Shown here one piece after another: positions 768 through 9,900 of a stretch of DNA of 32,494 bases. How positions within the stretch are numbered: the stretch's first letter is position 1; every line of letters begins with the position of its first letter. The stretch covers positions 1 to 32,494 of the forward strand of contig NZ_JADEVV010000047.1 of assembly GCF_015207985.1 (NCBI RefSeq), given 5' to 3'. Below the pieces are notes generated by a model, which was given only the letters and a program-made list of their open reading frames with translations, was not told the DNA's origin and did no database searches. This DNA is from Synechocystis salina LEGE 00031 (GTDB lineage: Bacteria; Cyanobacteriota; Cyanobacteriia; Cyanobacteriales; Microcystaceae). The translations under genes were made by a program, and so were the position numbers.

Positions 768-2375
768 ATGTTTATTTCCCCCCCCCGTAACTTACTGAAG
801 GTTGCTGTCCAACGTGTGGGTGGCTTCGTCATCGCCCTAGGCTTAGTGGCTGGAGGAGCTTTACCGAGCCTCGCCAAGGATGTTCTGCTCCAGGTTGGGG
901 TGGTGCAACGCTTTGGGGACGAAGACCGAGACCAACTCACCATCAGCGGGGTGGGCAACGACGATCTGACCTTTACCGCCGTCAATAACCAGGGGGAAAG
1001 GGTCACTCTCCAGAGCAAGCAAGGTACCATTGCCATTGGCCGCCGGGCCGTGCCGAGGAAATTGGCGGAAGTATTGGTGTTGGGGGACCATGCCACCTTT
1101 GAAACGGCGGAGGACGATGCCCTCCGTTGGCAAGCTCAAGGTATTGCAGTGGAAGTTACCCAACCAGGGCGTTGGCAAGTGTGGGCTAAACGGGACGTAT
1201 ATGATAGTCCCCTGGTGCGCCGTTGGTTGCTGGCAGATTTAAAAAAGCAGGGTTACCAATTGCCCTACCTGGAAAGTGTACTATTGGACAGTAAGCCCCA
1301 GGCCATGGTGGTTATCAATGGTCAAAGTTACCCCGCCGACCAACTGACCATCACCGCCGCCAAAAATCAAATTCAAGTTACGGAAGGGGAGAAAAAATTT
1401 GTCTATGGCGGTTGGTTGCAACTCCAGCCCAACTCCTACGGCAATTACACATTGGTTAACCATGTGCCCCTGGAAACCTATCTCCGGGGTGTGGTGCCCC
1501 ATGAAATTGGCCCCGGTGCCCCCCCCACTGCGGCCAAAGCCCAAACCATCATTGCCCGCACCTATGCCCTCCAAAACCGGCGTCGTTTTGCCGCCGATGG
1601 TTACGAGTTGTGTGCCACCACCCACTGCCAGGTTTACTACGGTTTAAGTGGCACTAGCCCCAGGGCCGATGAGGCGATTAGGGAAACGGCGGGGCAGGTT
1701 TTAACCTATAACAATCAATTGGTGGATGCCCTTTATTCCTCTACGGCGGGGGGGGTGACGGCCAAGTTTAGCGATGTCTGGAATGGGGAAGAGCGGCCCT
1801 ATCTCCAGGCGGTCATCGACTCGGCCCAGCCCATTTGGAATTTGTCCAACCAAAGCCTGGCCGATGAAGCGACTTTCCGTAAATTTATCAACCTCAAGGA
1901 AGGATTTAACGAAACGGGGCGGAAGTTTCTGCGCTGGCGCTACCCATCTACGTTGGCGGAATTGAATCAAGATCTGAAAAAGTATCTGACCAACCGGCGC
2001 CATCCCCTGGCGGACTTCACCACCATTTACGATATGAAGGTCACTAGGCGATCGCCATCGGGGAGAATTTTAATGCTGGAGGTGCTGACCGATAAAGGCG
2101 TGGTGGAATTGGCTAAAAACGAAGCCCGCAGTGCCTTTGGTCCTCCCCGCAGTACCCTGTTCTACCTGGAACCCACCTACGATGCTAACCAGCGACTCCA
2201 AAGCGTCTTTTTCGTTGGGGGAGGCTTTGGCCATGGGGTCGGCATGAGTCAATTTGGCTCCTATAAGCTATCCCAGTTGGGATGGTCGGCGGAACAAATC
2301 TTAGCTTTTTATTATCCTGGCACTCAAATCAGACAGCTCAATGAGCAAATTCTAGGGCAAACTCCCCGCCCTTGA
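768..2375 (+). CDS. SpoIID/LytB-domain protein, probably exported and acting on peptidoglycan
   Basis: The protein has 535 residues from the ATG at 768; a TTG two codons upstream would extend it slightly. Residues about 5-35 (LLKVAVQRVGG... LPSLAKD) form a signal peptide, so it should act in the periplasm. The SpoIID domain lies at about residues 210-340 and 440-530. It contains VPLETYLRGVVPHEIG, the AQTIIARTYA helix, CATTHCQVYYG, STAGGVT, and near the C-terminus FGHGVGMSQFGSYKLSQLGWS. In Bacillus SpoIID, a lytic transglycosylase, the Glu of the V(P)xE motif is catalytic, and the equivalent Glu is present here in PHEIG. In a non-sporulating cyanobacterium the likely role is cell wall remodelling or amidase enhancement. 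The gene is followed 39 bases later by a rhodanese gene on the same strand. Confidence 0.88.
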   Translation: MFISPPRNLLKVAVQRVGGFVIALGLVAGGALPSLAKDVLLQVGVVQRFGDEDRDQLTISGVGNDDLTFTAVNNQGERVTLQSKQGTIAIGRRAVPRKLAEVLVLGDHATFETAEDDALRWQAQGIAVEVTQPGRWQVWAKRDVYDSPLVRRWLLADLKKQGYQLPYLESVLLDSKPQAMVVINGQSYPADQLTITAAKNQIQVTEGEKKFVYGGWLQLQPNSYGNYTLVNHVPLETYLRGVVPHEIGPGAPPTAAKAQTIIARTYALQNRRRFAADGYELCATTHCQVYYGLSGTSPRADEAIRETAGQVLTYNNQLVDALYSSTAGGVTAKFSDVWNGEERPYLQAVIDSAQPIWNLSNQSLADEATFRKFINLKEGFNETGRKFLRWRYPSTLAELNQDLKKYLTNRRHPLADFTTIYDMKVTRRSPSGRILMLEVLTDKGVVELAKNEARSAFGPPRSTLFYLEPTYDANQRLQSVFFVGGGFGHGVGMSQFGSYKLSQLGWSAEQILAFYYPGTQIRQLNEQILGQTPRP

Positions 2376-7151: not shown

Positions 7152-8411
7152 CTAGCTAAACCATTCCGGCACAGCTTCTTCTTTGGTGTTGGTGTTACGG
7201 GAAGGAGTCTCCCGAGTGAACTTCATATGCACATTGCGGGTTTGTTCCCCATCCACCGCCACTGCCATGATGGGATAGTCAATCAAGCCATCTTGGAAGG
7301 ACATTTGGAAACGGAAGGTGCCGTCTTCATTGAGTTTAATCGGACGGCCACCAATGGTAACCGTCGCATCGGGTTCCGTGGCACCGTAAACAATCAGCTC
7401 AGCATCGGCCACTAACCAGAATTGCCGGGGACGGATTGGGGCTTCCGAGGCCATAAATTCGCTACTGGAAAGACCATAACCCATGCCAATGCCGGACATA
7501 TTTAAACCAGAAACATTGGGGGCTGCCCACAGGCCCGCTCCGGAGGGAAACACATAGGAGCTTAATGTTTGCTCGTGGGTAACGGAACCGGGGACGTGCT
7601 GCATAGAGCCGTAGAGGGAACCCGCCATCCGCAGGGCTTCAGCACCCTGGGCCATGTCAAACACTTGGTCATAGACTGCAGTGGAAACTCCCACAGAACG
7701 CTTGCTGGGGGGCACCAATTGGTAAATGGTTTTGCCTTGGAGGTCTTCGTCCCAGTTGACGGTGACAAACACATCTTCTACCCAGTCGGAGGGATAAACG
7801 GGGGGAATGCGAATGGGGGTGGAACGGGCCAGGGTGAGCCAGCGACCATCAAAGGTGCGATAGCCAATGTCTAGGGCATAATCGCGATCACTGACAGGGA
7901 TGGGCAAATACCATTCCCGGGCCAATTCATCACAGAGATATTCCTGGACGCTGTGGGGGCTTGCGGTCTGCCAATCCAGGTCGGTCACATCGTAGAGCCG
8001 CAGGGCCAACTGTTGCCCCCCCTGACTACGGAGAGCATCCTTATGTTCTTTGGGGATATCCCAATAGGCGTAGGCCCACTGGGGATCCCTGGGCATGAGG
8101 GTAATGCGGCTTTCACCGTAACCACCGGGCAAATCTCCCAAAACTTCATCGACGGCGGTGAGGGGGGCACCAAATTTATCATCTTGACCAAGTTCAAATT
8201 TAGAAGCTTCCACAGCTTGTTCCTCCTGGGGACGGTTAACGGATTTGACAGAAAAGGGAGCAGGGGCAGGTTTGTTGAGAGCCTTTTCCACCTCTGCTAG
8301 TAGCTGGGATTTACGCATCCGACTGTACCGGGAAATATTGCATTCACTGGCAACTCGGCGTAATTGTCGCAGCGTCATGTCTTCGAGGGAGGGTCGGTCT
8401 TCTTTAGCCAT
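7152..8411 (-). CDS. DUF4912 protein with N-terminal Rho-N/SAP-like domain
   Basis: The protein has 419 residues. Residues about 9-45 (LEDMTLRQLRRVA through RKSQLLAEVEKAL) match the Rho termination factor N-terminal fold, a small helical domain often tied to nucleic-acid binding. A DUF4912 domain follows at about 95-230, with LMPRDPQWAYAYWDIP near its start and the typical LRLYDVTD segment. A Gly/Ser/Met-rich linker (about 285-330) leads to a C-terminal beta-rich module (FWLVADAELIVYGATEPDA to the end) that resembles a second carbohydrate- or Ig-like fold. The role of DUF4912 is not established to my knowledge. There is no signal peptide. The start is a plain ATG. The gene has a long 5' gap and faces away from the Yfr2-like RNA. 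Confidence 0.85.
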   Translation of the reverse strand: MAKEDRPSLEDMTLRQLRRVASECNISRYSRMRKSQLLAEVEKALNKPAPAPFSVKSVNRPQEEQAVEASKFELGQDDKFGAPLTAVDEVLGDLPGGYGESRITLMPRDPQWAYAYWDIPKEHKDALRSQGGQQLALRLYDVTDLDWQTASPHSVQEYLCDELAREWYLPIPVSDRDYALDIGYRTFDGRWLTLARSTPIRIPPVYPSDWVEDVFVTVNWDEDLQGKTIYQLVPPSKRSVGVSTAVYDQVFDMAQGAEALRMAGSLYGSMQHVPGSVTHEQTLSSYVFPSGAGLWAAPNVSGLNMSGIGMGYGLSSSEFMASEAPIRPRQFWLVADAELIVYGATEPDATVTIGGRPIKLNEDGTFRFQMSFQDGLIDYPIMAVAVDGEQTRNVHMKFTRETPSRNTNTKEEAVPEWFS

Positions 8412-8778: not shown

Positions 8779-8819
8779 TGACAATCACCCAAGGCATTAT
8801 GACAATCCCTTAACTGTCA
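8779..8819. repeat. Two TGACAATC direct repeats 21 bases apart plus an inverted TGTCA, candidate operator
   Basis: TGACAATC occurs exactly at 8779-8786 and 8800-8807, start-to-start spacing 21 bases (two helical turns), and TGTCA, the inverse of its core, follows at 8815-8819. The block ends about 30 bases before the -10 box of the small RNA, where an activator could bind. No protein can be named from this alone. Confidence 0.35.
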
Positions 8820-8850: not shown

Positions 8851-8856
8851 TATTAT
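8851..8856 (+). promoter_or_regulatory. -10 box for the Yfr2-like small RNA
   Basis: TATTAT at 8851-8856 is placed to start transcription around 8862-8864, just at the beginning of the conserved GTGTGTGAGGAGT element. The expected -35 position is G-rich and shows no good match, which fits dependence on an activator or an alternative sigma factor. Confidence 0.5.
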
Positions 8857-8861
8857 CTAGA

Positions 8862-8925
8862 GGTGTGTGAGGAGTAAGTTGAAGCCCCCGGAGTCGAAAC
8901 AAGGAAAGACGCCCAGGGGCTTTTT
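8862..8925 (+). ncRNA. yfr2: Yfr2-family small RNA with intrinsic terminator
   Basis: About 64 bases. The 5' arm holds GTGTGTGAGGAGT (8863-8875), whose GTGTGAGGAGT core is the exact complement of ACTCCTCACAC, which I recall as the ultra-conserved motif of the cyanobacterial small RNA Yfr1. Next comes a stem with an outer helix AAGCCCC (8882-8888) pairing with GGGGCTT (8916-8922) and an inner helix GTC (8893-8895) with GAC (8908-8910). This encloses the loop GAAACAAGGAAA, and a T run (8921-8925) follows. A purine-rich GGAAACA-like loop closed by a terminator-type stem is the Yfr2 family signature as I remember it. A kissing interaction between Yfr1 and Yfr2 has been proposed. Which of the Yfr2 copies of the genome this is cannot be told. 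Confidence 0.75.
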
Positions 8926-9066
8926 CTTGCCGTTTTTTGCCCTGAAAGATTTTTCAAGCTGGTCTATGCTCTCCGTAAAAGTTCGGGATGGGCAGCCACT
9001 CTCCTTTGGTTCCCCCCGTCGGTAGGGATGATTTCAGTGGGCCGCCAAGATTATTAAAAATTTTTT

Positions 9067-9900
9067 ATGTGTCGTCTTTTAGGGTATCTGGGACAACCAC
9101 TGCGACCAGAGCAACTGATTTATCGCCCAGAACATTCCCTGATTGTCCAGAGCTATCAACCCCAGGAAATGACAGCGGGGCTGTTGAATGCCGATGGTTT
9201 TGGCTTGGGGTGGTTTGACCAGGGGCATCAACCCAGTCCCTATCTCTACAAAAATGTCCTGCCCATTTGGAGTGACATTAATCTTCCCCACCTGAGTCGG
9301 TATATCCAGTCCAGTTGTTTTGTAAGTTATGTCCGCAGTGCAACGCCCCCTTTGGCAGTGGATTTGACCAATTGTCAGCCCTTCACGGAGGAGGGGCTGT
9401 TATTTGTCCATAATGGATTTATCAATAATTTTCGGACTACTCTCTACCGTCCCCTACGGAATTTATTGAGCGATGCCAGTTATCAGTTCATCCATGGCAC
9501 CACCGACTCGGAACATATTTTTGCCCTCATTCTGGACAATCTCCGGCGGTCAAGGCAGGCTTCCCAGGGTGATGGCGATGGGGCAAAAAAGACTAGCTTG
9601 GGGGAGGCGTTAGAAGCAAGTTTGTTAACGTTGGCAGAGTTGGCTCGACAACATAACACTTATTTTTCCGCCAATATTCTTCTGGCCGATGGTCAGCGCA
9701 TTGTGGCCTGTCGTTATGCCAGTCGTCAACCGGAACCGAGTTTATATTGGCTGGCTGATAGTGAGCGCTGTCCGGGGGGAGTGATTATTGCCTCGGAACC
9801 CCTATTTACTGACCCCCAATGGCAGGCCTGTCCACCCCAAAGTATTTTGGCGATTAACAGCCCAGAGGCGATCGCCGTTAAAGTTCTAGCAGATCAGTGA
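9067..9900 (+). CDS. egtC: Class II glutamine amidotransferase, EgtC-like
   Basis: The protein has 277 residues. It begins MCRLLGYLG, so Cys2 becomes the N-terminal nucleophile after Met removal. This fixes the start at 9067, since an Ntn amidohydrolase needs the cysteine at residue 2. Further class II motifs are [11 protein letters not shown] (about 40-50), SYVRSATPP (about 93-101) and [10 protein letters not shown] (about 118-127), matching the GFGxGW and HNGxI signatures. EgtC removes a gamma-glutamyl group in ergothioneine synthesis in actinobacteria. No other egt gene is in this window, so the true substrate is uncertain. It converges on sigC, the stop codons separated by one base. Confidence 0.85.

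Follow-up and report, generated by a model that had tools for sequence, protein, structure and literature searches.

Between the genes for a DUF4912 protein and a class-II glutamine amidotransferase (PF13230), the genome of Synechocystis salina LEGE 00031 has a gap that a first-pass annotation, made from the letters alone, had read as the gene of a Yfr2-type small RNA. The question is whether this gap encodes such an RNA and, if so, what the RNA does. The analysis covered a 32,494-nt stretch of DNA around the gap (the window), in which the neighbours proved to be DUF4912 upstream and a class-II glutamine amidotransferase, EgtC-like according to the annotation, downstream; the upstream gene (7152-8411, reverse strand) encodes a DUF4912 protein with an N-terminal Rho_N domain. 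A covariance-model search with Rfam (cmscan), the check that the annotation had proposed, revealed a match to RF01701 (Cyano-1) at 8861-8928 of the forward strand, with 48.1 bits against a gathering cut-off of 41; the absence of a match, named beforehand together with the absence of a transcript as what would refute the reading, was thus not what was found. The match spans the model end to end and is the sole Rfam match at gathering threshold across the whole window. It departs from the model of this Yfr2-5 family by a 5-nt insertion after the arm and by stem gaps of 3, 1 and 2 positions. Cyano-1 is what we take to be the Rfam entry for Yfr2, and this is borne out since oligonucleotides for Yfr2b of Synechocystis PCC 6803 land on the match.

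Passages of Voss et al. 2009 (PMC2662882) describe how Yfr2a, Yfr2b and Yfr2c were mapped in PCC 6803, including the 5' end of Yfr2b, and passages of Kopf et al. 2015 (PMC5386190) give the three RNAs as 80, 65 and 70 nt, the 65-nt form being the Yfr2b RNA that accumulates there. Six published oligonucleotides (four for Yfr2b, two for slr0199; sequences from the passages of PMC2662882) align to the window in their published order, each with no more than 2 mismatches (0-2). Those for slr0199 fall at 9040-9060 (2 mismatches) and 9076-9095 (1 mismatch), the same linkage as in PCC 6803. Three oligonucleotides for Yfr2a and Yfr2c were also tried; the Yfr2c one aligned with 1 mismatch, on the shared loop, and the Yfr2a ones with 3 and 4. 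Because the oligonucleotides match and a glutamine amidotransferase gene lies downstream, as in PCC 6803, the locus is, by its sequence, an orthologue of the experimentally mapped Yfr2b. A downstream gene of the same kind is likewise shared with PCC 6714, and the S. salina copy differs from that of PCC 6803 by a few substitutions, as judged from the oligonucleotides rather than from the full PCC 6803 sequence. The first reading was therefore correct and also ordinary: the RNA had already been described in close relatives, and its detection here adds little to what is in print.

Table 1. Features of the Yfr2b locus in window coordinates, and candidate Yfr1 target sites in other genomes.
Feature	Position or locus	Strand	Basis or status
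Candidate operator TGACA-N10-TGTCA, 20 bp	8800..8819	+	Recurs upstream of Yfr2 loci
TATTAT, probable -10 box	8851..8856	+	Sequence; invariant in three species
Yfr2b sRNA gene	8861..8928	+	RF01701 match; same sequence in three species
5' arm GTGTGAGGAGT, single-stranded, exactly complementary to Yfr1 motif ACTCCTCACAC	8865..8875	+	Sequence; fold; the genome's Yfr1
Stem-loop with a helix interruption at -4 from the loop	8881..8923	+	Folds; both-side changes in 7/9 pairs, 11 genus copies
Conserved 12-nt loop GAAACAAGGAAA	8896..8907	+	Sequence; unpaired probability 1.00
T-rich tail CTTTTTCTT of probable terminator	8920..8928	+	Sequence; first bases paired in model
slr0199 orthologue, class-II glutamine amidotransferase	9067..9900	+	PF13230; linkage in 3/5 genus genomes
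Exact 11-mer 5-9 nt before start codon, STAS gene	L006, L138, L151		Candidate Yfr1 target
Exact 11-mer 5-9 nt before start codon, M23 peptidase	L289, L291		Candidate Yfr1 target
Exact 11-mer 5-9 nt before start codon, OprB porin	L266, L277, L284, L292		Candidate Yfr1 target

The elements from which the RNA had been recognised, namely an arm exactly complementary to the Yfr1 motif, the loop, the T-rich tail and a TATTAT before the RNA, were all recovered in the sequence and folds (Table 1). The arm has a single match in the window even when 1 mismatch is allowed (0.22 expected), and its mean unpaired probability of 0.91 in the fold model gives the conserved unpaired 5' stretch by which Yfr2 is recognised. 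The loop is closed by 3 pairs, followed at -4 by an interruption that leaves a single base unpaired in the 5' strand and two opposite, beyond which lies an outer helix (8881-8891/8913-8923). A stem with such a break at -4 below a loop of 12 nt is a Yfr2 feature in passages of PMC2662882 and is present in the folds obtained here. The loop core GAAACA is common to the Yfr2 loci of the upstream-element survey reported below, loci that had been selected for GAAACA. The folding energy of bases 8855-8935 is -27.1 kcal/mol, with a z-score of -2.33; 2 of 200 shuffles do as well. On the fold model, the stem-loop probably doubles as an intrinsic terminator. A terminator scan restricted to loops of 3-8 nt called none; the hairpin and its T-rich tail are present, with a loop of 12 nt. 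The promoter scan did not flag the TATTAT.

Three species of the genus carry the locus between the same flanking genes, and the sequence from the -10 box through the terminator is identical in all three, with a diverged spacer to the next gene. When 11 Yfr2 copies from the genus were compared, changes on both sides that preserve pairing occurred, in one copy or more, at 7 of the 9 predicted pairs; between 0 and 4 copies break or gap any given pair. The S. salina genome contains three Yfr2 loci above the RF01701 cut-off (a fourth match, at 20.8 bits, is far below) and one Yfr1 (RF01116, 58.3 bits; G000:C10:46435-46498), which bears the exact ACUCCUCACAC and sits upstream of a gene that by eye resembles thioredoxin (WCGPC).

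The arm of Yfr2b is exactly complementary to this Yfr1, a different RNA, over 11 nt, and both the arm and the Yfr1 motif are single-stranded in the models. The cofold of Yfr1 with Yfr2b gains -21.5 kcal/mol, compared with -7.1 +/- 2.9 in 500 shuffles, none of which did as well. A plain intermolecular duplex score gave no separation of Yfr2b from shuffles, 307 of 500 being as good, and was therefore rejected as evidence of pairing. The cofold gain, which does separate them, charges for opening the monomers. Pairing of Yfr1 with Yfr2, a proposal in the first-pass annotation, is more than that in print: passages of Lambrecht et al. 2019 (PMC6778093) report that Yfr1 is enriched together with Yfr2 in Prochlorococcus, and those of Brenes-Alvarez et al. 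2020 (PMC6974561) a gel shift of the two RNAs in Nostoc.

Complementarity to Yfr1 might have arisen by chance in an ordinary terminator or leader. A terminator-like hairpin does exist, and simple arithmetic predicts an exact 11-mer about twice in a genome of this size. Such a coincidence is refuted by the RF01701 match, the identity in three species and a survey of 67 Yfr2 loci, best-scoring rather than random, and not independent since relatives and paralogues are included. In 60 loci the arm agrees with the Yfr1 complement at 9 or more of the 11 positions (23 exact, 24 at 10/11, 13 at 9/11) and in 7 it falls below 9/11, against 0/67 with 9 or more at each of four shifted control positions; the exact count comprises 22 by script and L179, a short-flank locus read separately. 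The 11-nt motif itself is exact in all 35 fetched Yfr1 loci (34 by script plus the short-flank L204). We accordingly give the chance reading next to no probability.

That the arm tracks the Yfr1 complement also argues against a view in which Yfr1 pairing is secondary and the purine-rich arm and loop, with their GGA motifs, bind a protein in the manner of CsrA/RsmA sponges. A resemblance to GGA/ANGGA sites and a conserved bulge are remarked on in PMC2662882, and the loop too is conserved; the same passages state that no RsmA/RsmE homologue was found in cyanobacteria, and we consider protein binding as the main function very improbable. Another view is that the element works mainly in cis, controlling the glutamine amidotransferase gene as its 5' leader or attenuator, with the small RNA as a by-product: the RNA lies in sense and ends 138 nt before the start codon, a separate start site of slr0199 could not be mapped in PCC 6803 according to a passage of PMC2662882, and passages of PMC3960264 list Yfr2b as the slr0199 leader. 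Against it, the RNA is identical in three species although the spacer to the gene has diverged, and other Yfr2 copies stand elsewhere, those fetched with 1.5-kb flanks from genomes G002 and G004 having no amidotransferase gene beside them. A mainly cis-acting role is improbable.

The best explanation, which we hold to be very probable, is that Yfr2b titrates Yfr1 through an arm mimicking ribosome-binding sites, and that read-through feeds the downstream gene. Yfr2b would be a trans-acting RNA of about 65 nt whose unpaired 5' arm imitates the ribosome-binding sites recognised by Yfr1. The arm would form an 11-nt duplex with the unpaired central part of Yfr1 and take Yfr1 off its mRNA targets, so that their repression is relieved; bound Yfr1 should in turn shield Yfr2 from RNase E. 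Titration is likely on the strength of work in other species. According to passages of PMC6778093 on the Prochlorococcus RNAs, an E. coli reporter shows Yfr2 relieving repression by Yfr1, and Yfr2 is a substrate of RNase E, whose cleavage of it Yfr1 blocks. Beside the family membership, orthology, conserved structure and perfect Yfr1 partner established here, we infer that the same events occur in S. salina as in its relatives, from the transcript and its start in PCC 6803 and the interaction in Prochlorococcus and Nostoc. Incomplete termination at the 3' hairpin would let transcription run on into the glutamine amidotransferase gene, and the slr0199 orthologue is probably driven in part by read-through from the Yfr2b promoter. 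Yfr2b and the amidotransferase gene are linked in 3 of 5 genus genomes, and passages of PMC5386190 describe Yfr2b-slr0199 as an actuaton (sRNA-mRNA fusion), an arrangement conserved in PCC 6803 and PCC 6714. The spacer (8929-9066) contains no promoter-like site by a scan that missed the Yfr2b -10 box too.

Among 146 genomes from the class, strict filters left 130 with a Yfr2 match, 98 of which exceed the cut-off, and 143 with a Yfr1 match, 141 of which exceed it. The 16 genomes lacking a Yfr2 match, 12 from one genus (g32) and 4 from one family (f20), all have a Yfr1 match, and the 3 lacking a Yfr1 match under these filters each have Yfr2. Loss of Yfr2 from g32, suggested by 12 of 12 genomes without an RF01701 match, was rejected, as a diverged copy is present in 5 of the 5 genomes examined. 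One identical 39-nt sequence is found in these copies (G053, G132, G146, G025 and G098); at loci L219 and L221 the 12-nt loop reads GAAACAGGGAAA, with 31.7 bits to RF01701 against the cut-off of 41. All four f20 genomes keep Yfr1 without a Yfr2 match, and a pattern search, the one method applied to them, did not recognise Yfr2. Given these four genomes and the reverse case in 3 of 146, the Yfr1-Yfr2 pair may not be obligatory. Two further sequences were observed during the survey. At L021 (genome G002, about 1501-1571, reverse strand) the Yfr2 arm reads GTGTGAGGGGT, one A being replaced by G, which could pair with Yfr1 as G-U. On a contig from a MAG named as a non-cyanobacterium (Brevinematales; L090, 5416-5445), one arm-plus-loop match with short spacing is probably due to chance.

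If the arm imitates ribosome-binding sites, the 11-mer is also of interest before start codons. It occurs four times in the S. salina genome: in Yfr1 (on the other strand), in two Yfr2 copies and in the leader of a STAS-domain gene. Passages of Voss et al. 2007 (PMC2190773) likewise count the motif four times in PCC 6803. The opposite strand of the STAS site reads as a Yfr1 motif, and the site may belong to a further Yfr1-like RNA. A limited literature search for a link between Yfr1 and a STAS protein or anti-sigma factor antagonist in Synechocystis returned no paper that mentions Yfr1. Five genus genomes contain 19 copies, 5 in Yfr1, 9 in Yfr2 and 5 shortly before an ATG; since the backward control gives 6 matches in all, it is the position of the five leader matches that stands out, not their number. 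These leaders precede a STAS gene in three species (Pfam on one of the three proteins) and an M23 peptidase gene in two (Table 1).

Sixty genomes of the order yielded 58 matches before an ATG. Among them, 21 share one 24-mer, and we interpret these as the opposite strand of Yfr1, several having been checked by coordinates. The remaining 37 compare with 6 for a backward control and 23 for a control that keeps the Shine-Dalgarno core, which weakens the case for treating an 11-mer ahead of an ATG as strong proof that the gene is a Yfr1 target; because the excess over the Shine-Dalgarno-matched control is modest, it supports the decoy model without proving it. Loci were fetched for 16 of the 37; 11 have an open frame of at least 117 aa and 5 one of only 8-15 aa. 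Four of these 16 are OprB porin genes. Porin and M23-peptidase leaders are the kinds of target reported for Yfr1: passages of PMC6778093 name two porins as earlier targets in Prochlorococcus, and passages of PMC6974561 cell-wall genes in Nostoc.

The candidate operator upstream of Yfr2b recurs at other Yfr2 loci. With small variations (TGNCA-N10-TGTCA), it lies 44-50 bp upstream of the GTGAGGA core at 22 of 57 loci against 0.6 expected from shuffles, and at 0 of 57 in downstream stretches. The 57 are the 67 Yfr2 loci less 10 without an arm by script (six from genus g13 plus a seventh member of family f9, two from f49, and the short-flank locus L179, whose arm is present). Loci with the element include L014, L018, L019, L020, L166, L175, L233 and L244; the 35 without it include the two other Yfr2 copies of the S. 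salina genome. The genus and class sequences had already been read when the pattern was drawn up; in the order set, unread beforehand, the element is found at 8 of 21 loci against 0.15 expected. Searching 5 genomes with a tight pattern produced 10 matches (control 2), of which 4 are at Yfr2. A regulon beyond Yfr2 was rejected, as five of the other six fall within long open frames; the sixth, L255, stands just ahead of a frame of 411 codons.

Yfr2 of Prochlorococcus is regulated by the GntR protein PMM1637 according to passages of PMC6778093, and those of PMC6243067 connect the related PlmA/Sll1961 with nitrogen signalling. Published passages on PlmA/Sll1961 gave no binding sequence, and that the element is the site of this PMM1637-kin regulator is only a guess. 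It is conceivable, if doubtful, that Yfr2 is a decoy copying the ribosome-binding sites of outer-membrane porin and cell-wall mRNAs, and that many yfr2 genes share an operator through which one nitrogen/light regulator sets free Yfr1. For this locus, reading a sequence by itself can pick out a 65-nt regulatory RNA together with its partner motif. The 11-mer at porin and M23-peptidase starts and the shared upstream element provide concrete sites for studying Yfr1/Yfr2 control. If the wider proposal is true, the level of free Yfr1, and hence the make-up of the cell envelope, would be set by one regulator across cyanobacteria.
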